Of a stretch of DNA of 64,000 nucleotides, positions 15,628 through 30,521 are shown piece after piece. Both the position numbers and the translations under genes were made by a program. Each line of letters begins with the position of its first letter. The first letter of the stretch is position 1. The stretch spans positions 62,001 to 126,000 of the forward strand of contig JACRQF010000006.1 of assembly GCA_016222825.1 (NCBI GenBank), read 5' to 3'. Below the pieces are notes generated by a model. That model was not told where the DNA came from and did not search any database. It was given only the letters and a program-made list of their open reading frames with translations. The stretch comes from Verrucomicrobiota bacterium (lineage in GTDB: Bacteria; Verrucomicrobiota; Verrucomicrobiia; CAIQCK01).

Positions 15628-16093
15628 TACGCTGAATCTCCTGTTGATTTGGTTTGTCCGTCTTGGCCGGCTGCAAATCCGTCCAGTCAAGGTTCGCGCA
15701 GCCTAGGCGGTCGCGCGAAAAAAGCCAAGTTTGAATCGCATCCCGCCGCCGGGACGCCGAAGCTGAGTGTCGCCGAAAGTGAGCAGTGGGATGCCGATGA
15801 ACAGATGGACAAAGCCCATGAAGGTGTAGAGAACGGTTATTGTCGTGCTGGACTGAAGGATTGAGATGCGAATCAACTGTTTCTTCACAGCGTGTGGCTG
15901 GTCCAGGACGGCAGCTTCATTTGAGACGTGCCAGGCATGCAACAGCTCGGCGCACTCTGTAACTTGCCACCCTGCGTGTCCAGCCGAATGACAGCGCCTT
16001 GATGCGATAGGATTTCATTTGCAAACAGAAGATTGTGCAACAGAATGGCCTCCAACCTGTAACACATGTCCTTGGTTCATCCGAAAGACACAC

Positions 16094-17326
16094 ATGAAAT
16101 TGATGCCGGATTCAAAAATGATTGGGGCGGTGGCGCTCGCGCTCATGCCTCTCCTTGCTCTGCCCTGTCATGCGGGAACCGGAATCAGTTCCGATGAGAT
16201 GGCGGTCATCAGGTCTTGCAACGAAACGGCGCTCCAGCTTTATCGAAAGCTGGCCAGAGAAGACGCGAAGAACATTGTGATTTCTCCCTATAGCATAGGG
16301 ACAGCCATGTCCATGGCGCTTACAGGGGCGCGCGATGGCACCGAAGCGGAGATGAAGACCGTGCTTAACCAGGCGCTGTCGCGGGAGAAAATGGACGCGG
16401 CGAATCAGAAGCTTCTGGAGAAAATGAACCGTTTCCAGGGAGCGTCTGGTGATGTGCTTTCGATAGCCAACGGGTTGTGTCTGACGACCGACAGCGCGCT
16501 CGTGCACCGTGATTACAGGGAACTGCTGAAGTCGAAATACCACGCGGAAATCTTCGACGCGCCTGATGTTGGTCCGATCAACCGCTGGGTGGCCGCAAAA
16601 ACGAAAGGCAAGATAGAGAGGATTCTTGAGGAGCTCTCGGCCAATTCGGTCTGCGTGCTGCTCAACGCGATCTACTTCAAGGGAATTTGGGCGACCCAGT
16701 TTGACAAGAAACTGACGCAGCCGAAACCGTTCCAGACAGCCTCCGGCGAGATGATTTCAGTTCCAACAATGCGGCTACGCGCGTCCTTCCCATGCACGCA
16801 ACGCGAAGATTGCGCGGCCCTGTCCATGCCTTACAAGGCGGCTTCGCTGGCGATGGTCATCATCCTGCCAAACGAAAAGGACGGACTGCCCAAGCTTGAG
16901 AAGACACTTTCCATGCAGACGCTGCGATCCATCGTGGACGATCTTGGCGGAAGCAAGCCGACGGAAGTGATGCTGAACCTGCCAAGGTTCAAGGCAGCGT
17001 CTGGGGCCAGTCTGATACGGCCATTTCAAGCGCTCGGCATGAAGCTGGCGTTCTCAGCCAGCGCGGCCGATTTCGGAGGAATCACGGGGCGTGCCGACGC
17101 GCGGGGATTGATCTGGATAGCACAGATCCAGCACAAGGCATGTCTTGAAGTGAACGAAGAAGGAAGCGAGGCAGCCGCGGCGACAGCCGTCGAGTTTGCG
17201 ACCAAGTCGGTTCCCCGCTTTACCGAGTTTCGTGTTGACCATCCTTTCTGTTTCCTGCTGATGGACAAGGATACCGGCGCGATCCTGTTCATGGGACGAG
17301 TGAACAATCCCTTGGAAACAAGATGA
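16094..17326 (+). CDS. Serpin family serine protease inhibitor, secreted
   Basis: KNIVISPYSIGTAMSMALTGARDGT; LLNAIYFKGIWATQFD; hinge EEGSEAAAATAVEF; HPFCFLLMDKDTGAILFMGRVNNP. Confidence 0.93.
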   Translation: MKLMPDSKMIGAVALALMPLLALPCHAGTGISSDEMAVIRSCNETALQLYRKLAREDAKNIVISPYSIGTAMSMALTGARDGTEAEMKTVLNQALSREKMDAANQKLLEKMNRFQGASGDVLSIANGLCLTTDSALVHRDYRELLKSKYHAEIFDAPDVGPINRWVAAKTKGKIERILEELSANSVCVLLNAIYFKGIWATQFDKKLTQPKPFQTASGEMISVPTMRLRASFPCTQREDCAALSMPYKAASLAMVIILPNEKDGLPKLEKTLSMQTLRSIVDDLGGSKPTEVMLNLPRFKAASGASLIRPFQALGMKLAFSASAADFGGITGRADARGLIWIAQIQHKACLEVNEEGSEAAAATAVEFATKSVPRFTEFRVDHPFCFLLMDKDTGAILFMGRVNNPLETR

Positions 17327-19429: not shown

Positions 19430-20236
19430 TCAACGTTTCGTTGCTCGAAGCAAAGCGCGATTGGCCGCGAAGGCCCGAAGCAAACTCTTCACGTCGAACG
19501 GACGCAGGTCCGGATTTGCGCCGACGAGCAACGCGCACATGCCGGCGACCGCAGGTGTGGCAAAACTGGTCCCGGTGACTGTCGTCCTGCCTCCGCCCGC
19601 AGCAGCCACCACCACTTGGTCGCCATGAGCCACAAACTCGATGACGTGGTCTTCAGCAAAAAGCAGTTGCAGCGGTGAAGGGAACTTGCCGATGTCCACG
19701 CCGATGCACGTGGCGATCTCGGCGGGAAAACCGTCGTCCGTGAGCGGCACATTTCGCCTCGCGGCAATGACTATCTGGTTCTGGCGATAGGCAGTCTGAC
19801 AAAGCTCGTGCAGCGCCCCGGCGAACTTGGCATTCGCGGCCAGGCTCATATTGATGATTCGCGCCCCCGACTCGATGGCATGCTGGAAACCGGCGACCAT
19901 GGTTTCACCGGTGCAGATGTTCTGGTCGTCGAGAACGCGCACATCCAGAATGCGCGCGTTGGGTGCGATCTGCGTGACGATGCTTGCGACGGCAGTCCCG
20001 TGGCCATACAGGTCGTTGTTTCGCGAAACCGGATTCTTGCGTATCCGCTGTCCATTCGCGCCGCTTTCCACCCGCACGGCGCGAACCACACGGCCCGTCA
20101 GTTCCTGATGTTTCGCGTCCACGCCACTGTCCACCACCGCCACGGTGACGGGGCGCAGTTTTTGTCCTCGCAGTTTCTCAAGACTGACTTCAAGTGCGGC
20201 TTGGAGGCTCATGAGTCGGGCGTTCGGTGCGTTCAT
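19430..20236 (-). CDS. S8 subtilisin-like serine protease, compact, no signal peptide
   Basis: VAVVDSGVDAKHQ (Asp), GHGTAVASIV (His), GTSFATPAVAG (Ser). Confidence 0.92.
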   Translation of the reverse strand: MNAPNARLMSLQAALEVSLEKLRGQKLRPVTVAVVDSGVDAKHQELTGRVVRAVRVESGANGQRIRKNPVSRNNDLYGHGTAVASIVTQIAPNARILDVRVLDDQNICTGETMVAGFQHAIESGARIINMSLAANAKFAGALHELCQTAYRQNQIVIAARRNVPLTDDGFPAEIATCIGVDIGKFPSPLQLLFAEDHVIEFVAHGDQVVVAAAGGGRTTVTGTSFATPAVAGMCALLVGANPDLRPFDVKSLLRAFAANRALLRATKR

Positions 20237-20898: not shown

Positions 20899-21043
20899 AG
20901 AACGCGATCCTTCAAGAGGGATACTGCGCCTCTCGCCGGAGAGCGACAATCACTTTCTGTTGGCATGATGGGTTGCGCCGGAAACCTTGAACAGGAATTT
21001 CCGGTTGACACCTCCATGCTGCGCAGTCTCTCATCGCTTCGCG

Positions 21044-22327
21044 ATGGCAACGACAGCCGCGAATAAAGCCGCCAAGATACTGAGCGAAGCCGTGATCGGC
21101 TACGCCGCAAAGCAGCCGGAAAGACTGTTTCTTCAAATTCGTGGCAACGAACGCCCGCGGCAACAAGCGCGAAACTGCGGCGGCCGCCCGCAGCAATGGC
21201 CGCAGTGCTTCGTGGTGCGGTTGACGGGCCGGTGCAATCTCGCATGCGCCTACTGCTTCGACGCAGCCAACGGTTCGCGGCGGCAAGATCTTGATGTGGC
21301 GACGGCCCGGCAGATCGCCGACTACATCCTGCGGACCCCCGGTTCAAAACCGGTAATATCGTTTTTCGGCGGCGAGCCGCTCGTCAACTGGGAGACAGGC
21401 CGGTTTCTCATCGAGACGCTTCGTCGCGAAGGGCGCGCGAACGGGAAGATTCCCTATTTCAACGTCATCACCAACGGCACATTGATTACGCCGCCGTTGG
21501 CACGGGAACTGGCCAGCGACGACATCACCGTTCAAATCAGCATAGACGGGCCTCGAAAACACCACGACCGCCACCGGCGCGACCCCAGCGGGGCCGGCTC
21601 ACACCAAGCAGCGCTTCGCGGGCTGGAGTTGTTGCGCGCAGCCAGTCCGAAAGCCAAAGTGGATGCGCAAGCGGTGCTCACGCCCGGCAACACGGACCTG
21701 ATAGGTATCGCGAAGCATTTGAAGGCGGTGGGATTTCGGCGCATCAAGTTTCTGCATCTCACCGACGACGAGGGCGGCGGAGAAGCGTGGTCGGCGGCAG
21801 CCGTGCGCAGGTTGATTCGGGAACACGAGAAGTTCTATGTCTATTATCTCCAATCCGTTATCAACGGACACCCGGAAGTGGACATGGGGTTCGCCCATCT
21901 TATCGCGTCGCAACCCGAAGGTCCCCACGGTCTATGCACGTGCGGGTCAGATGAGATATTGATTGACGCGCGCGGCGACATTTACCCATGCCCGAAACTA
22001 TACGGGCAGAGCGCCGTCCCGGCGCTTGGTAATTGTGCCACCAGCGATCCAAGCGCGCCGCCGAACATTTCCCGGCCTACGCAACCGCTGGATTCCGAGT
22101 GTGCGCAATGCTGGGCATACGAGTGGTGCGGCGGCGGCTGTTCGTTCCAATGCCAGAAGTGCGCGTTGACACCCTCCAGCCACAGCAGCGTCACCCAGAA
22201 ACTCTGGTGCGACCTGATGCGCGCACGGTTCGCGCGGGCTGCGATTACATACCGTCTGCTGCGACGTTCATTCCCGAAATGTTTGGAGTCCATCCAAAGG
22301 CTCTTTAGCGATGTGACTCTCGGATGA
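21044..22327 (+). CDS. Radical SAM/SPASM-type peptide maturase
   Basis: CNLACAYCF; SFFGGEPLVNW; C-terminal CAQCWAYEWCGGGCSFQC. Confidence 0.88.
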   Translation: MATTAANKAAKILSEAVIGYAAKQPERLFLQIRGNERPRQQARNCGGRPQQWPQCFVVRLTGRCNLACAYCFDAANGSRRQDLDVATARQIADYILRTPGSKPVISFFGGEPLVNWETGRFLIETLRREGRANGKIPYFNVITNGTLITPPLARELASDDITVQISIDGPRKHHDRHRRDPSGAGSHQAALRGLELLRAASPKAKVDAQAVLTPGNTDLIGIAKHLKAVGFRRIKFLHLTDDEGGGEAWSAAAVRRLIREHEKFYVYYLQSVINGHPEVDMGFAHLIASQPEGPHGLCTCGSDEILIDARGDIYPCPKLYGQSAVPALGNCATSDPSAPPNISRPTQPLDSECAQCWAYEWCGGGCSFQCQKCALTPSSHSSVTQKLWCDLMRARFARAAITYRLLRRSFPKCLESIQRLFSDVTLG

Positions 22328-22425: not shown

Positions 22426-22671
22426 ATGAAAAAGAAAACCATCAAGAAGACTGCATCAGTCAAGGTTGTCGCGGATGGAACAAACTGCGTCACGTTGGTG
22501 TTTCCCGAGGGAACGGTCCTGAAGGGGAAGAAGAAGCTTTCTATCAAGGATGTGGCCAAGGTGCTGAGCGCCGTGGAAACCGATGAGGTTTCAGGTCAAT
22601 GTTACCTGCATTCCCTGAAGGAAAGAATTCAGGTGCGCACTCCGAGCGCGATTGGCGGCGTTCGTGGTTAA
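22426..22671 (+). CDS. Putative RiPP precursor peptide 1
   Basis: RBS AAAGGAG; MKKKTIKKTASVKVVADGTNCVTLVFPEGTVLKGKKKLSIKDVAKVLSAVETDEVSGQCYLHSLKERIQVRTPSAIGGVRG; homologous to 25751-25987. Confidence 0.75.
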   Translation: MKKKTIKKTASVKVVADGTNCVTLVFPEGTVLKGKKKLSIKDVAKVLSAVETDEVSGQCYLHSLKERIQVRTPSAIGGVRG

Positions 22672-23005
22672 CCGTGAGTTGAGCTAGACGGCGTCGTCTC
22701 GGTGTGGCGTCGTTCTCTCGCGAGGGGCTGCGCGATTCAAACGCCCCTTTCACATGCGCTCGGTCACTTTCGATCAAGGACGTGGCCAAAGTGCTGAGCG
22801 CTGTAGAAACCGATGAGGTTTCGGGACAATGCTACCTCCACATCAGGAAATTGGAGTTAATCCGGGACGGCGTCCGCACGCCATCCGCAATCGGCGGCGT
22901 GCGCGGTTAACCGTGAGTTGAGCGGGACGCCCTCGTCCCGATGTGACGTCGTTCTCTGGCGAGGGGCTGCGCGATTCAAACGCCCCTTTCACATGCGCTC
23001 GGTCA
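22537..23005 (+). repeat. Partial tandem duplication (about 230 + 239 bp) covering precursor 3' half and downstream hairpins
   Basis: Unit A 22537-22766, unit B 22767-23005; CGAGGGGCTGCGCGATTCAAACGCCCCTTTCACATGCGCTCGGTCAC in both. Confidence 0.9.
22704..22910 (+). CDS. Putative leader-truncated RiPP precursor 2
   Basis: GTG-start ORF ending LSIKDVAKVLSAVETDEVSGQCYLHIRKLELIRDGVRTPSAIGGVRG; starts inside the intergenic repeat. Confidence 0.55.
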   Translation: MASFSREGLRDSNAPFTCARSLSIKDVAKVLSAVETDEVSGQCYLHIRKLELIRDGVRTPSAIGGVRG

Positions 23006-24745
23006 CGTCATGAAAGGGTTTCCTGCATGCCCAGCTTTGAGCAACGGGAAAGCCGGAACGGTTTGTCTAAGAACCTCGTTTGCGAGGATGTCCTTGCGGT
23101 AGCCTATCGTCCGATAGAAGCGGGCGATTCCGCTTTCCACCAGTTCGATGCAGCGTTTGCCCTTGGGCTCGTCATGCCAGAACATGTTGGAAAGCGACGC
23201 GGCCTTTGTCATTGAGCGTATCCCATAAGCAGCCGGTGAGTTGAAAACGTCTGACCCGAACAGGAGTTGGAATCGGTTCAAACTGAAGGTTGTTTTGGGA
23301 ACGCTGCGAATGAGGCCTGCCAGGAAGCTGAGGGTTCGGCGGCATTTTTCATAAGCCTCGCCAGGGAACCCGTAAATCATGCAGTAGTGGTTGTAGATGC
23401 CGTGCGCCGCGGAATCGCGATGAATCTGCTGTGTCACTGAGCGGTAGGCATTCCCGGTCAGCGCGGTCTTATTCATGCGGCGCAGGGTGGCGTCGTTGAT
23501 GGACTCCAATCCGAAGATCAACTCAGCGCAACCCCCGCGAGCCATTGTCGCGATGCGTCTGGCATCCCAGCGGGGGTCTATACGAGTCCGAAGCGACCAC
23601 TTGGCAGTAATGCCGGCGTCACGCGCCGAGACGGCTAACGCCGTCGCCGCTTCTGGGTTGATCCCCTGATCGCAGAAGACGATGGTCGAGGAGATCTTGG
23701 AAAGCTGGCGCAGGCTGGCAGTCCACCTAGTCGGATCATCGGATTCCGTATCCGGATCGCCGGCTCGCCGACGGTGCCGGCTGTTGTGCCGGCAGAAGAC
23801 GCACCGGTTCCAATAACAGCCGCGGGAAGAAAGCCGGTGCAGGATCACCAGCTCTGGAGAGAATATCCTGGAGCACTGCCGGGCCGCTTCCTGGCGCAGA
23901 CGCCCGAAATCCAAATCATCAAGCGCGTTGTGTCCGAGACTCTGCTTGCCGCTGCCGGACATGTGCGCATCGCCAAAGCGATGGAGGTTCTCGATCTGTT
24001 GCGTCTTCTTTGTCTCGGCAAGTTGGTTAAAAGTCTCAACCAACCCTTCCTCTGAGATAACGATTCCATCAGTTTGTTTGAGCAAACCGGCGTATCGGCG
24101 GCTGTGTTCGACCAGGTAATCAGTAGCGTTGTTCTCCCAACTGTGGCCGTGGATGAGCACAGTGTTGCCACGCCGACGGAATCGTTCACACAGAATGCCG
24201 AGATGCAAAATATCGGTGTAGCTGTAGGTCACCGCGCTGACAATATTGGCATCGAAGAGTTCCCGGATCGTCTTCGAGCGCGTCCGGTAGAAATCCATGA
24301 TGGGGTTTCTTTCACTCCGAGCGTAGGCCAGAACCTTCCCGAGAGGTCGCTGGGTATCGTAGGTAAGACCGTAGGCCGAGAGTTCTTGCAGGTTTCCGCC
24401 GCTGAACTGTCGTAAGAGATTTGAGGCCACCGCCAGATAGCTGCCGAGGCAGGAGATAGCGTCCAGATATCGCTCCGGGTTATAAAAGCGTTTCGGGTCC
24501 CGAAGCGTGGCGATGGTGCTGGACTCAATGACAGTGGCCAGGAACTTGATTTGCGGGACCGCCGCCCGACCGAGGTGCTTCCGCAGAAAACCGAGGAAGT
24601 CCGCTGAGAAAAGGTATTCCCAGAAAAGCAGGTTGAGGTTCTCAAACCGGACTTCGTCCTGGATTTTCCGGCTCAGCAGAGTGAACTCCGGATAGGCGTA
24701 GAAAGTCGTCGGAAACCGACCCGGCAATACAATGGATTGGATCAT
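23003..24745 (-). CDS. Radical SAM protein, probable B12-binding-type RiPP maturase
   Basis: SSRGCYWNRCVFCRHNSRH (CX4CX2C), SLRTRIDPRWDARRIATMARGGCAELIFGLESINDATLRRMNK. Confidence 0.75.
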   Translation of the reverse strand: MIQSIVLPGRFPTTFYAYPEFTLLSRKIQDEVRFENLNLLFWEYLFSADFLGFLRKHLGRAAVPQIKFLATVIESSTIATLRDPKRFYNPERYLDAISCLGSYLAVASNLLRQFSGGNLQELSAYGLTYDTQRPLGKVLAYARSERNPIMDFYRTRSKTIRELFDANIVSAVTYSYTDILHLGILCERFRRRGNTVLIHGHSWENNATDYLVEHSRRYAGLLKQTDGIVISEEGLVETFNQLAETKKTQQIENLHRFGDAHMSGSGKQSLGHNALDDLDFGRLRQEAARQCSRIFSPELVILHRLSSRGCYWNRCVFCRHNSRHRRRAGDPDTESDDPTRWTASLRQLSKISSTIVFCDQGINPEAATALAVSARDAGITAKWSLRTRIDPRWDARRIATMARGGCAELIFGLESINDATLRRMNKTALTGNAYRSVTQQIHRDSAAHGIYNHYCMIYGFPGEAYEKCRRTLSFLAGLIRSVPKTTFSLNRFQLLFGSDVFNSPAAYGIRSMTKAASLSNMFWHDEPKGKRCIELVESGIARFYRTIGYRKDILANEVLRQTVPAFPLLKAGHAGNPFMT

Positions 24746-25750: not shown

Positions 25751-25987
25751 ATGAGCAAAAAAACCATCAAGAAGACTGCATCAGTCAAGGTCGTCGCGGA
25801 CGGATCAAACTGCGTCACACTGGTGTTCCCCGAGGGAACGGTCCTGAAGGGCAAGAAGAAGCTTTCGATCAAAGACGTGGCCAAAATCTTGAGCGCTGTG
25901 ACAACTGGTGAAGTCGAGGGGCAAGCTTGTTGGGGGCGGATTGTCAATACACCCAATCCGACTTCGATTGGCGGTGTTCGCGGCTAA
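25751..25987 (+). CDS. Putative RiPP precursor peptide 3
   Basis: MSKKTIKKTASVKVVADGSNCVTLVFPEGTVLKGKKKLSIKDVAKILSAVTTGEVEGQACWGRIVNTPNPTSIGGVRG. Confidence 0.75.
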   Translation: MSKKTIKKTASVKVVADGSNCVTLVFPEGTVLKGKKKLSIKDVAKILSAVTTGEVEGQACWGRIVNTPNPTSIGGVRG

Positions 25988-26101
25988 GCACAGACTTAAC
26001 GGGATCGCATCTGAGACCGGCTTTGCCTAACCCGATGCGGCAAGCTTGGATCCGGCGCGAAAACCACGACTACCATTGCTGAGCGTAGGATAATGGGTTC
26101 C

Positions 26102-27517
26102 CGACAAGAGATGACGATGAGCAAGGAATTTGAATCTTTCGCGGACGAATGGGTTCCGTCGCGATTCAACATGGCGGTGGACCTCCCGCGCGGTCGCAAG
26201 GCGGTGTTCAACAGCTTCAACGGTTCCTTGGTTGTCATCACCGCCTCGACATGGCGGCGTTATCTCAAGGCCGGTTGCGCGATTCCTGCACGACCTCAAG
26301 CCTCTTCCGATGACGTGGATGTCTTGTGCTCGACTGGCCTGTTGGTGTCCAAGTCGGTCAATGAACTCGACCTGCTCCGGTTGCGCGACCAGACGGCGCG
26401 TTTCAACAACGGGAAACTGGGTGTGACCGTCGCGCCCACGCTGGCCTGCAACCTGAGTTGCCGTTACTGCTTTGAGAGCGGTGTCCAGAAGGCCGGCCAC
26501 GGCAAGACGCTGACGCGCGACCGTGAGGATGAGATTGTCCGTCACATTGCCGTGTCCGCACGGGGGAAACGATCGCTGGATATGAGCTGGTTTGGCGGTG
26601 AGCCGCTGCTGACTGCCGAAGCCATCGCCCGCATCAGTTCGCGATTGATCCCGGCATGCGACCAAGCCGGCGTGAAATACTCGGCCGTCCTCGCCACCAA
26701 CGGCATGCTCTTGAGCCGGGATGTCGTTCGATTGCTTCGCGAGTGCCGCCTGAAGTTTGTGCAGGTGACTGTGGACATCCCCGCGTCGGAAAAACGCGAC
26801 CGTCTCGGCCGGGATACGGCAGGGCAGGTGCTGAACAACCTGGTATTCGCTGCACAACGGCTGCCGGTGCATCTTCGCATCAACATCGTCCGCGACGACA
26901 AGGCGGGGTTCGATGCGCTTTACAGGCAGTTGATCCGGCGCGATTTGCACCGGCATCTTCAGGCTTTATTCTTCGCTTATGTGTTTGACCCGGAGTGTGG
27001 CGGTCGCCATGCGCGTTTTGCGGCGATGACTTATCCGGCTTACGCCCGAATCGCAGCGCGTGAACGGCGGAAGGCGCGAGCTTTGGGTTTGCCGGTGCAT
27101 GCCGATTTCCGGCCCACACAGGTTGGCTGCATCGCCACCGATCGCTTCAACATGGTCATCGGTCCCGACGGCCGGCTTTTCAAGTGCACCGAAGATATTG
27201 GCATGGCGGAGCGGGCCTATGGCTCCATCGAGCCGGGCAGCCCTGTGAAGCTCAACAATCTGGTGCCATGGCTGCTTTATGACGGGTTGCAGGATCCGCG
27301 ATGCGTCCGATGCCCGATTCTGGCGGAATGCAACGGCGGTTGTCCTCACATCCGGCGATTCCAGCCGGGACAGCTTGAAGCGATGCGTTACTGTGAAGGC
27401 CATCTTCAGGAGATCAAAGACCGCATCCGCGAGTGGGCAACAGACCACCTCGGCCGCAGCCCGCGCCGGAGCGCTACGATAGTCGAGCCGGGTAGCAAGG
27501 AGTCCGCCGACAGATGA
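26102..27517 (+). CDS. Radical SAM/SPASM-type peptide maturase
   Basis: CNLSCRYCFESG; MSWFGGEPLLTAEA; GCIATDRFNMVIGPDGRLFKCTEDIG; CVRCPILAECNGGCPH. Confidence 0.9.
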   Translation, partial: RQEMTMSKEFESFADEWVPSRFNMAVDLPRGRKAVFNSFNGSLVVITASTWRRYLKAGCAIPARPQASSDDVDVLCSTGLLVSKSVNELDLLRLRDQTARFNNGKLGVTVAPTLACNLSCRYCFESGVQKAGHGKTLTRDREDEIVRHIAVSARGKRSLDMSWFGGEPLLTAEAIARISSRLIPACDQAGVKYSAVLATNGMLLSRDVVRLLRECRLKFVQVTVDIPASEKRDRLGRDTAGQVLNNLVFAAQRLPVHLRINIVRDDKAGFDALYRQLIRRDLHRHLQALFFAYVFDPECGGRHARFAAMTYPAYARIAARERRKARALGLPVHADFRPTQVGCIATDRFNMVIGPDGRLFKCTEDIGMAERAYGSIEPGSPVKLNNLVPWLLYDGLQDPRCVRCPILAECNGGCPHIRRFQPGQLEAMRYCEGHLQEIKDRIREWATDHLGRSPRRSATIVEPGSKESADR

Positions 27518-30069
27518 AGTCGCGCCTCGACACGTGGTTCACGATCTGGCATCCGCGCTACCGCGGCTGCCTCATTGAACTTGCGATGGTCGGGGCGCTC
27601 GCCTCGGCCCTGACGTATGCCCAAAACGACCTGCTGGGTTTGTTGACGCTTTCGCTCGGTGCCGCAGGAGAACCGGATGGCGGTGGTGAAGGTGCCGCCG
27701 CGTTGTTGAAAAGACTTTCGGAACAGTTCCAGCTCGGCTTGCCGTTGGTGGCGCTGGTGTCTTTCATCACGGTTCGACTGGTTTCAGGTGCTGTGGAGTA
27801 TTGGAAGACATACGCGACCGGCCGGCTCGGCATCCGCTCACGGGACGATCTGGAAACGGAGATCCTCCTGAACCTCTTGAACAAGGACGATTCGTTCTTC
27901 AGCCGGCATTCACCCGCTGAGACGGTCAACAGGCTGGCCGTGGACCTCAATCGCGTCAGCGACCGTCGGCCGAACTTGATGAAGGTCTGGTGGAGCGTCT
28001 TGCTGCTCGCCGGCAATTTGGTTTTCTTCTTCCTTCGGGATTGGCGTCTGGCCGTCGTCGGCGCGACGGCTTGTGTCGCTGGCGCGCTCTGGACGATGCG
28101 CGCGACTCGACCGGTGAAGGAGATGGACGAGCATTACCTGGAACAGGATGACCACATCAAATCTCGCTTCGAGGATTTCCTGCGCGCCGCGCCGGAGGTT
28201 CAGGTGGGTCACCTTTACCAGAAGATCCGGCATCATTTCACGAGCCTGCTGGTCGCGCGGAGCGAGACCTTCTTGAAATATGTCCGGCTGAACAGCAGCC
28301 TGCGGTTGGCCAATGTCATCGCTTATGTGCTGGCGTTTGTTGCGATGGTTCTTGTCGTCCTTTACATGCGCAAGACAGCCAACATCAGCGCCGCTGTAGC
28401 TCTGGTTCCCGTGGTGGTTTGGGCTTTGCCGGTGTTGTTCCAGGAAGCATCCGAACTGGTTTTTCTCCGGCTCGATTTCCAGATCGCGAGGGTCAGCATG
28501 GGGCGCCTGCTGGAATACGAAGCGCAGGAAGCCGTGAACAGCTGTTCCGCCACGGCCGCTTCGGCGGAACCAGCGGCCATCAACATCGAGCGCGTGACTT
28601 ATCGTTATGCCACTCCCGATGGAACGCAGCAAGGCGGCGTGGTGGACGTGACTGCCAGTTTCGCTCCCGGCCGGTGGATCGCCATCGTCGGGGGCGCCGG
28701 CTCGGGAAAATCCACGCTGTTGAAACTCCTGCTCGGCCGGCTCAAGCCACAGGAAGGCTCCATCCGCTATGGACGGGCATCGCTTGACACAATGGCAGGC
28801 ACCGACCGCGCTGCGATCTTCTCGCTCATGCCGCAATCCATCGCGCTGCTCGATACGAGCATCCGCCAGAACATCTTCTTCGGCAGGTCTGCCGATAATG
28901 GCGCCGCCGCCGAAGGCGCTCCGCTGGCTGCCGAAGACATGGATATAATCGAACGTGCCGGCTTGGGGCGGATCTGTCGGCTGAAGGCGCTCGACATGTC
29001 GCCGGGGATGTCGTCCGGCCACACGGCTATTGCGCCGAACATCGTGGCCGCGCGCCATCGCCTGCGCGAGCGGTTGCGTGAGGCCTGTGGAGTCGCAGTC
29101 CTGCCCTTCGAGGAAGGTCACGCCGACCGCGGACATTGGGTGCTGGAAAGCCTGCTCGCCGGCAGGTGCGACCGCGAGCTTGCAACGGGGTTGTTGCTCG
29201 GCAAGCCAGGAAGGCGGAAGTTGCAGTCGCTGCCCCAAACACCGTTCGGCAAAGCGCTGGTCGCACTGGCGCGCAAACTCCTCGAAGGGAATCGTCAGCT
29301 TCTTGGCATTGCGAACTACCACGTCTATTCACAGCTCTCCCCCTATCCTCTCGATGAGGGCCTCTGGCGTCTGCGATCTTCGAGTCTGGAATTCATCCAA
29401 CAGACCGCGCCGTCTCCCGACCAGGCATTATCCTTGTGCATCGTGGCGCTGACAGCTTCTTTGGCTGAGATCGCCGATGACGACGGGGCAGGCAGTCTGC
29501 TCAAGCCTGAGAACCGGCAACTGTTTGCGGCGGAGGTGGGCAGTTTGAAGGATATGCTGGGCGACGCGTGCCTGCCGTATGACGCTGACAATGTGCATCC
29601 GCATCTGACGTGGCGCGAGAACCTCCTCTTCGGCGTTGTGGACGTCCGCAACAGCCGCAGTGGCCGGTTGGTGGACCAGACTGTGCTGGACTTTGTCGGA
29701 CAAGAAGGTCTGAAAGACACATTTACGCGGCTGGGCCTTGAATTCAAAATAGGCAGGCTCGGTGGCAACCTCTCCGGCGGCCAAGGCCAGCTTGTAGCCC
29801 TCTGCCGTGCGCTGTTGCGGCGCACGCCCGTGCTGGTCGTGGACGAGCCAACCTCGGCGCTCGATCCTGCCAGCCGCGCGACCGTCGCAGCATTGCTGAG
29901 GGAGCATAAGAAAGACCGGATCATTATCGCCGTCAGCCATGACGTGGAGTTCATCCGGGCCGCCGACGAGGTTAGGTTGATGGATGGGGGCCGGCTGGTA
30001 GCCGCCGGCACATTTGAGGAACTTGAGCAGAGTTCGGAGACTTTCCGGAGGACGATCAAGCACACATGA
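27514..30069 (+). CDS. ABC exporter (TMD-NBD) with large insertion inside the NBD
   Basis: TM helices; Walker A GGAGSGKST; signature NLSGGQGQLVALCRALL; Walker B VLVVDEPTSALDP; signature lies about 360 aa after Walker A. Confidence 0.88.
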   Translation: MKSRLDTWFTIWHPRYRGCLIELAMVGALASALTYAQNDLLGLLTLSLGAAGEPDGGGEGAAALLKRLSEQFQLGLPLVALVSFITVRLVSGAVEYWKTYATGRLGIRSRDDLETEILLNLLNKDDSFFSRHSPAETVNRLAVDLNRVSDRRPNLMKVWWSVLLLAGNLVFFFLRDWRLAVVGATACVAGALWTMRATRPVKEMDEHYLEQDDHIKSRFEDFLRAAPEVQVGHLYQKIRHHFTSLLVARSETFLKYVRLNSSLRLANVIAYVLAFVAMVLVVLYMRKTANISAAVALVPVVVWALPVLFQEASELVFLRLDFQIARVSMGRLLEYEAQEAVNSCSATAASAEPAAINIERVTYRYATPDGTQQGGVVDVTASFAPGRWIAIVGGAGSGKSTLLKLLLGRLKPQEGSIRYGRASLDTMAGTDRAAIFSLMPQSIALLDTSIRQNIFFGRSADNGAAAEGAPLAAEDMDIIERAGLGRICRLKALDMSPGMSSGHTAIAPNIVAARHRLRERLREACGVAVLPFEEGHADRGHWVLESLLAGRCDRELATGLLLGKPGRRKLQSLPQTPFGKALVALARKLLEGNRQLLGIANYHVYSQLSPYPLDEGLWRLRSSSLEFIQQTAPSPDQALSLCIVALTASLAEIADDDGAGSLLKPENRQLFAAEVGSLKDMLGDACLPYDADNVHPHLTWRENLLFGVVDVRNSRSGRLVDQTVLDFVGQEGLKDTFTRLGLEFKIGRLGGNLSGGQGQLVALCRALLRRTPVLVVDEPTSALDPASRATVAALLREHKKDRIIIAVSHDVEFIRAADEVRLMDGGRLVAAGTFEELEQSSETFRRTIKHT

Positions 30070-30521
30070 ATACCTCCGCTCTTAACGCAGCCGCACGGAC
30101 GCAAATCCTGAACACTTGCCCGTTGTTCGCGAGCATTCCTGTTGCCGAGCGTGCGCTGCTCGCGGAGATGATGGAGACGGAACGCTTGTGCGCGGGTGAA
30201 ACTCTATTCGAGGCCGGCGACCCGTCTGACCGGGTTTACGTCGTGAGCGAAGGCCGAGTGGCCGTGTTCCTGCCAGACCAGTCGCAGGCTGTGCGCAGCC
30301 TGGGCCCCGGCGACATCATCGGCGAATATGGGATGTTCCTGAATCGCGGTCGCAGCGCGACACTCAAAGCCGAAGCCGACACCACGCTGATGTCGCTGGA
30401 CCATATTCGGTTCCGTTCGTTCCTGCTCCGGTTTCCGGATGCCGCGCTGTCGCTGCTCCAAACCACCGTTGAGCGGCTTGTCGCCGCCGAAGACCGCGCG
30501 CGAGGCGGGTCGCACGGTTAG
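30066..30521 (+). CDS. Cyclic nucleotide-binding domain protein (no HTH)
   Basis: LFEAGDPSDRVYVVSEGRVAVFLPDQSQAVRSLGPGDIIGEYGMFLNRGRSATLKAEADTTLMSL; overlaps ABC stop. Confidence 0.88.
   Translation: MNTSALNAAARTQILNTCPLFASIPVAERALLAEMMETERLCAGETLFEAGDPSDRVYVVSEGRVAVFLPDQSQAVRSLGPGDIIGEYGMFLNRGRSATLKAEADTTLMSLDHIRFRSFLLRFPDAALSLLQTTVERLVAAEDRARGGSHG

Follow-up and report, generated by a model that had tools for sequence, protein, structure and literature searches.

Silent divergence and a replaced core in a tandem precursor repeat: a probable truncated relic in a putative radical-SAM RiPP locus of Verrucomicrobiota

Introduction

A conserved leader followed by a variable core is already standard in families of ribosomally made and modified peptides (RiPPs). 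In the prochlorosins such precursors occur with conserved leaders and variable cores, and their diversification was attributed to core recombination together with insertion–deletion (PMC10783134). Truncated prochlorosin precursor pseudogenes are described as common in the part of PMC10027976 that cites Cubillos-Ruiz et al. 2017. In the maturation of the QHNDH gamma subunit (QhpC/QhpD/QhpE/QhpF) a radical SAM/SPASM enzyme, a subtilisin-like protease and an ABC exporter are found in one cluster (PMC7876137). A third group of related systems is that of the ranthipeptide/SCIFF maturases, such as PapB and CteB.

In this paper we looked at a locus within a 64,000-nucleotide stretch of Verrucomicrobiota DNA (the window), which sits in contig C14 (169,745 bases) of a 6.6 Mb genome in 27 contigs. 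The locus resembles the prochlorosins (ProcA) in the conserved leader and variable core of its paralogous precursor genes. Yet, prochlorosins have a LanM synthetase and Nif11 leaders, whereas here we find radical SAM/SPASM enzymes, a leader that matches neither Pfam nor NCBIfam and a C-terminal GGVRG tail that is conserved. The locus shares with the QHNDH system the combination of enzyme, protease and exporter, but its QhpD and QhpE scores fall below the cut-offs, and its precursors hold one or two Cys while the QHNDH gamma subunit is a multi-Cys protein. It is also similar to the ranthipeptide/SCIFF systems, as PapB is the best NCBIfam model for one of its radical SAM proteins (rSAM1) and CteB (5wgg) is the best sequence match among solved structures for both rSAM1 and rSAM2; however, the scores are below the family cut-offs and the precursors are not Cys-rich. 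We do not see in it a system of a new kind; its peculiarities are a precursor family without a Pfam or NCBIfam match and an unusually clear mosaic of divergence. No paper describing such a radical-SAM RiPP from Verrucomicrobia was found in our literature search.

The gene cluster and its distribution

The genes around the precursors are as follows; the repeat itself, which lies between rSAM1 and the third radical SAM gene, is listed in the next section.

19430..20236, minus strand: S8 (subtilisin-type) protease, PF00082 subtilase; nearest model QhpE, below cut-off
20987..22327, plus strand: rSAM1, radical SAM/SPASM peptide maturase; nearest NCBIfam models of the PapB and QhpD types, below cut-offs
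23003..24745, minus strand: third radical SAM protein, resembling the PhpK/B12 type and convergent with the precursor; the repeat unit ends on the right at its stop codon
24770..25609, minus strand: FkbM-family methyltransferase
25751..25987, plus strand: third precursor, full length, 78 aa, core region RIVNTPNP
26093..27517, plus strand: rSAM2, radical SAM/SPASM peptide maturase with a predicted N-terminal region of three strands and three helices that resembles an RRE; nearest model TIGR04463, below cut-off
27514..30069, plus strand: ABC transporter, membrane domain and ATPase
30066..30521, plus strand: cyclic-nucleotide-binding domain protein

Each of the enzyme scores is well short of the threshold of its model: rSAM1 reached 159.8 bits against NF047865 (PapB; threshold 340) and 143.8 bits against TIGR03906 (QhpD; threshold 453), the protease 94.8 bits against NF049966 (QhpE; threshold 165) and rSAM2 183.7 bits against TIGR04463 (threshold 525). 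The Pfam model of the ATPase in 27514-30069 is matched in two stretches about 200 residues apart, as if the nucleotide-binding domain held a large insertion, and this long form of the ABC transporter is also found in two relatives, G001 from the same genus and G004 from the same family. By eye, an open reading frame at 16019-17326 appears to be serpin-like (a protease inhibitor); it lies a few kb from the S8 protease, and a close homologue of it is found upstream of the cluster in L021.

The precursor genes look like those of ribosomally made, radical-SAM-modified peptides. They are short genes beside modifying enzymes, a protease and an exporter, in an arrangement that is conserved across species (G001 and G004). 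They also combine a conserved leader with a variable core: 46 of 81 columns are invariant in the seven full-length precursors, nearly all of them outside the core, which varies in length and sequence across the family. The N-terminal 37 residues hold 26 of these 46 columns, and the C-terminal GGVRG is shared as well. At E <= 0.1, the three copies in the window had no family in either Pfam or NCBIfam, and the predicted precursor structure (pLDDT 43) was uninformative.

An orthologous cluster with two precursors was found in G001 and in G004 and in no other relative; the precursor and rSAM1 are absent from two other genomes of the same genus and two of the same family. A GTDB scan returned the same two relatives only, no convincing distant homologue was found in 384 genomes of the class, and there were none in viral contigs. 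Five phylum-level matches (E 0.002-0.01) fall within long frames, and we regarded them as chance hits. We are thus looking at a small RiPP-like family in three Verrucomicrobia genomes of one family. On a contig of G001 separate from that of its cluster (C27, near 40414; L011/L023) there is a full-length precursor with the core region RHRHVP, and inspection by eye of the large frames up to about 9 kb away showed no radical SAM gene. In G004 an extra rSAM2-like radical SAM gene (L022:10347-11828, minus strand), which is 45% identical to rSAM2 and is absent from the window, lies beside the first precursor.

The tandem repeat

The source genome holds only three precursor homologues, namely copy 1, copy 2 and the gene at 25751-25987. 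Copies 1 and 2 are arranged in tandem.

22426..22671, plus strand: precursor gene copy 1, 81 aa, complete; ATG with an AAGGAG Shine-Dalgarno; 76-88% identity to six other full-length homologues
22537..22611, plus strand: copy 1 leader segment LSIKDVAKVLSAVETDEVSGQCYLH
22612..22632, plus strand: copy 1 variable core SLKERIQ
22633..22671, plus strand: copy 1 tail VRTPSAIGGVRG and TAA stop
22672..22766, plus strand: copy 1 3' flank; 22720-22766 identical to the copy 2 flank; its right end is a second copy of the downstream radical SAM gene's stop codon
22704..22910, plus strand: open frame holding copy 2; GTG start, no ribosome-binding site; its codons 1-21 are copy 1 3' flank
22767..22841, plus strand: copy 2 leader segment; the first 37 residues of the gene are absent
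22842..22871, plus strand: copy 2 replaced core IRKLELIRDG
22872..22910, plus strand: copy 2 tail VRTPSAIGGVRG and TAA stop
22911..23005, plus strand: copy 2 3' flank; 8 differences from the copy 1 flank, all in its first half

The coding part of the repeat spans 22537-22671 in copy 1 and 22767-22910 in copy 2. In the leader segment 10 of 25 codons differ between the copies and all of the differences are silent, which agrees exactly, codon pair by codon pair, with what a sequence-only reading of this DNA had listed. That reading had also claimed synonymous changes only in the tail, and this was borne out, with 8 of 12 codons (9 nt) different and the residues unchanged. Over leader and tail together, 18 of 37 codons (19 nt) differ without a single amino-acid change. 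The probability that 18 random single-base codon changes would all be silent is about 1.4e-10, and therefore there was real constraint on the protein. One tail Ser codon is AGC in one copy and TCC in the other; since no single silent step links the two and several homologues have Thr (ACN) at this site, it probably passed through Thr.

The core behaves differently. SLKERIQ in copy 1 stands against IRKLELIRDG in copy 2, and the core DNAs of the two copies cannot be aligned beyond the chance level (543 of 2000 shuffles score as high). Copy 1 core DNA resembles the cores of two G001 genes (0 of 2000 and 32 of 2000 shuffles as high), and similar 7-residue cores are found in copy 1 and in both cluster precursors of G001, so that copy 2 is the outlier. 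The proposed signature of purifying selection on recognition elements with diversification of the core stands in so far as leader and tail are constrained and the core is variable among eight copies in three genomes, but the diversification is uneven. Copy 2 core DNA occurs once in the source genome, and an origin of this core elsewhere in it was therefore rejected.

Copy 2 begins at codon 1 of the leader segment, and the 37 residues that precede it in a full-length gene, 26 of them invariant in the seven full-length homologues, are missing. This half is plausibly a recognition element, considering that rSAM2 may have an RRE-like region, that its best fold match is CteB (5why) and that the CteA leader binds as a strand in the CteB RRE, according to a review (PMC8326336). 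In rSAM2 three strands followed by three helices are predicted before the radical SAM barrel, with low model confidence in this N-terminal region (pLDDT ~40-60). Copy 2 has no ATG; the sole frame that leads to its stop starts with the GTG at 22704, and no ribosome-binding site above random was found for it. Copy 2 thus resembles a pseudogene, in that both the start signals and a piece of the conserved protein are gone, and its frame is intact over 75 codons, without a stop or a frameshift. It is probably neither translated nor processed today.

The repeat is longer than was first noted and takes in 95 nt of 3' flank. All 8 differences between the flanks of the two copies fall in their first 48 nt, and the final 47 nt match letter for letter. 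On its right, the unit ends exactly where the convergent radical SAM gene has its stop codon (23003-23005), and in G001 this gene directly follows a single precursor; on these grounds we take the single-copy order, precursor and then convergent radical SAM gene, as ancestral. The junction (22766/22767) is free of Ns, and its microhomology amounts to about 1 nt.

Age of the divergence and of the tandem arrangement

How old the two sequences are and how old their tandem arrangement is can be treated as separate questions. Between copies 1 and 2 the leader dS is 0.82, and 12 of 23 fourfold sites differ over leader and tail. Genes flanking the precursors, compared between the source genome and G001, give a dS of 0.69-1.12. 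For the precursors themselves, 9-10 of 22-23 fourfold sites differ between species (9/23 for copy 1 and 10/23 for copy 2, each against the G001 cluster gene G1A). Because the divergence between the copies is at the level seen between species, the split of the two sequences appears to be about as old as that of the species. In a DNA tree of ~100 nt, copy 1, copy 2 and the two G001 cluster genes (G1A and G1B) form an unresolved star.

The flank gives a very different age. The last 47 nt are identical between the copies although they can be aligned to none of the six other copies in the family, which argues that the tandem arrangement is recent. The difference from the fourfold sites is significant (p = 1.3e-7), and with 0 of 47 positions changed the upper bound on the age of the tandem is ~7% of the divergence if the flank is neutral. 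This estimate rests on 47 nt. As the stretch aligns to no other copy and the flank folds no better than shuffles, functional conservation was rejected as the source of the identity; a genome-wide repeat was rejected too, since neither the 47-nt stretch nor the flank occurs in the source genome beyond copies 1 and 2.

Most likely, then, the silent changes arose while both sequences were in full-length genes. A recent duplication, with purifying selection acting after the truncation, was rejected as the default, as the flank is identical while the fourfold sites have diverged as far as between species. It had been argued from the silent changes that copy 2 was translated despite the loss of its N-terminal leader half; this holds only if the changes postdate the truncation, and the flank points to a recent arrangement. 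Since the truncation copy 2 has had zero amino-acid changes, over a span too short to expect many: a dead copy would have gathered about 2-3 (our estimate from ~80 nonsynonymous-equivalent sites), and therefore the zero is uninformative. Silent-only divergence between tandem copies thus speaks of past selection on the sequences as genes and not of a present function of the truncated copy. In such cases the age of the arrangement needs a separate check, which was provided here by the flanking DNA.

Discussion

The reading that we favor, with a probability of about 0.7, is that copy 2 is a relic, truncated at its 5' end and formed recently, that bears or adjoins a diverged allele, and that the copies diverged in full-length genes. 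The repeat, its pattern of divergence, the identical flank, the missing parts of copy 2 and the conservation of the cluster in relatives are observed, and from them we infer a recent recombination with a diverged allele. Duplication and recombination would drive the diversification of the precursor genes in what would be a radical-SAM RiPP locus. Its working precursors would be copy 1 and the gene at 25751, each with a long conserved leader that is read by the maturases, a short variable core and the conserved C-terminal GGVRG tail. Silent divergence in leader and tail would have built up in full-length alleles under purifying selection. A segment bounded by leader codon 1 and by the convergent radical SAM gene's stop codon would then have been joined in tandem at about 1 nt of microhomology. 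A diverged allele would have reached one copy of the pair, be it during this joining or afterwards through homologous recombination. Several points count against the relic reading: no full-length donor allele was found in the genomes scanned, the frame of copy 2 is intact, the A-to-G change that both copies carry in the first 13 nt of flank suggests common descent within this lineage, and gene conversion could make the 47-nt flank uniform after an old duplication.

There is also a hint of a mosaic between the paralogues themselves. Copy 1 and the third gene differ in 7 of 34 codons of the N-terminal half and in 10 of 17 codons of the leader (p = 0.011, before any correction for the six comparisons made). 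The dS of their N-terminal halves (22426-22536 and 25751-25861) is 0.33 and that of their leader segments 2.2, which suggests gene conversion between them. Such a locus may serve as a compact example of precursor gene shuffling.

One possible option is an old duplication after which the truncated copy 2 went on being translated to this day, from the GTG at 22704 or by coupling, delivering a second core that is recognised through the half-leader and tail alone or processed with help in trans. The open frame that runs through the junction and the 0 amino-acid changes against 18 silent ones would fit this, and many radical SAM enzymes are reported to be leader-independent (PMC8326336). Nevertheless, the precursor's most conserved half is gone, there is no ribosome-binding site above random, the truncated copy is absent from both relatives that have the cluster and the 47-nt flank, identical in the two copies but not conserved otherwise, points to a recent arrangement, so that we consider continuous translation unlikely. 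That copy 2 is a working headless precursor with a non-canonical start, whose core is matured through the half-leader and the GGVRG tail alone, seems to us unlikely as well; if true, one locus would give two products, one from a full-length and one from a tail-guided precursor.

The tandem might also be unreal, an assembly artefact in which two strain variants of one locus were joined in the contig. Copies 1 and 2 do behave as alleles of different strains, and the relatives that came out of the GTDB scan are groundwater metagenome bins. But with only ~1 nt shared at the junction no k-mer overlap could have made it, and the site has no Ns, which leaves this explanation quite improbable. Another hypothesis is that copy 2 is a promoterless silent cassette that donates its core to copy 1 through the leader and tail as arms, in the manner of antigenic variation by gene conversion. 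Such a cassette would be expected to lie beside an expressed gene, to lack its head and to hold another core flanked by homologous arms, as copy 2 does; the paralogues are mosaic, and an identical flank fits a conversion tract. The arms, however, are short and 13-23% different, which makes them poor substrates for recombination, and this is a single cassette, absent from the relatives and with no recombinase noted beside it. We regard it as very improbable.

DNA downstream of the stop codons

Directly after the stop codon, similar DNA is seen in all eight precursor copies (22672-22684, 22911-22923 and from 25988 in the window; L010, L011 and L012 in the relatives), with the consensus TCGTGAGTTGAAC. 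The mean pairwise identity of the eight is 0.67 over 13 nt and reaches background (0.26-0.27) by 48 nt, so that the flank shared by all copies is the first ~13 nt only. In copies 1 and 2 these first 13 nt are identical and carry an A-to-G change that is absent from the other copies, which suggests a common descent of the two copies within this lineage. By eye, a short hairpin can be drawn after the stop at 22684-22702 and 22923-22941, and also in G1A, with paired changes (AGACG..CGTCT, GGGACG..CGTCCC and GGACG..CGTCC); in the other copies it is not obvious. The post-stop element common to the eight copies is possibly an RNA element.
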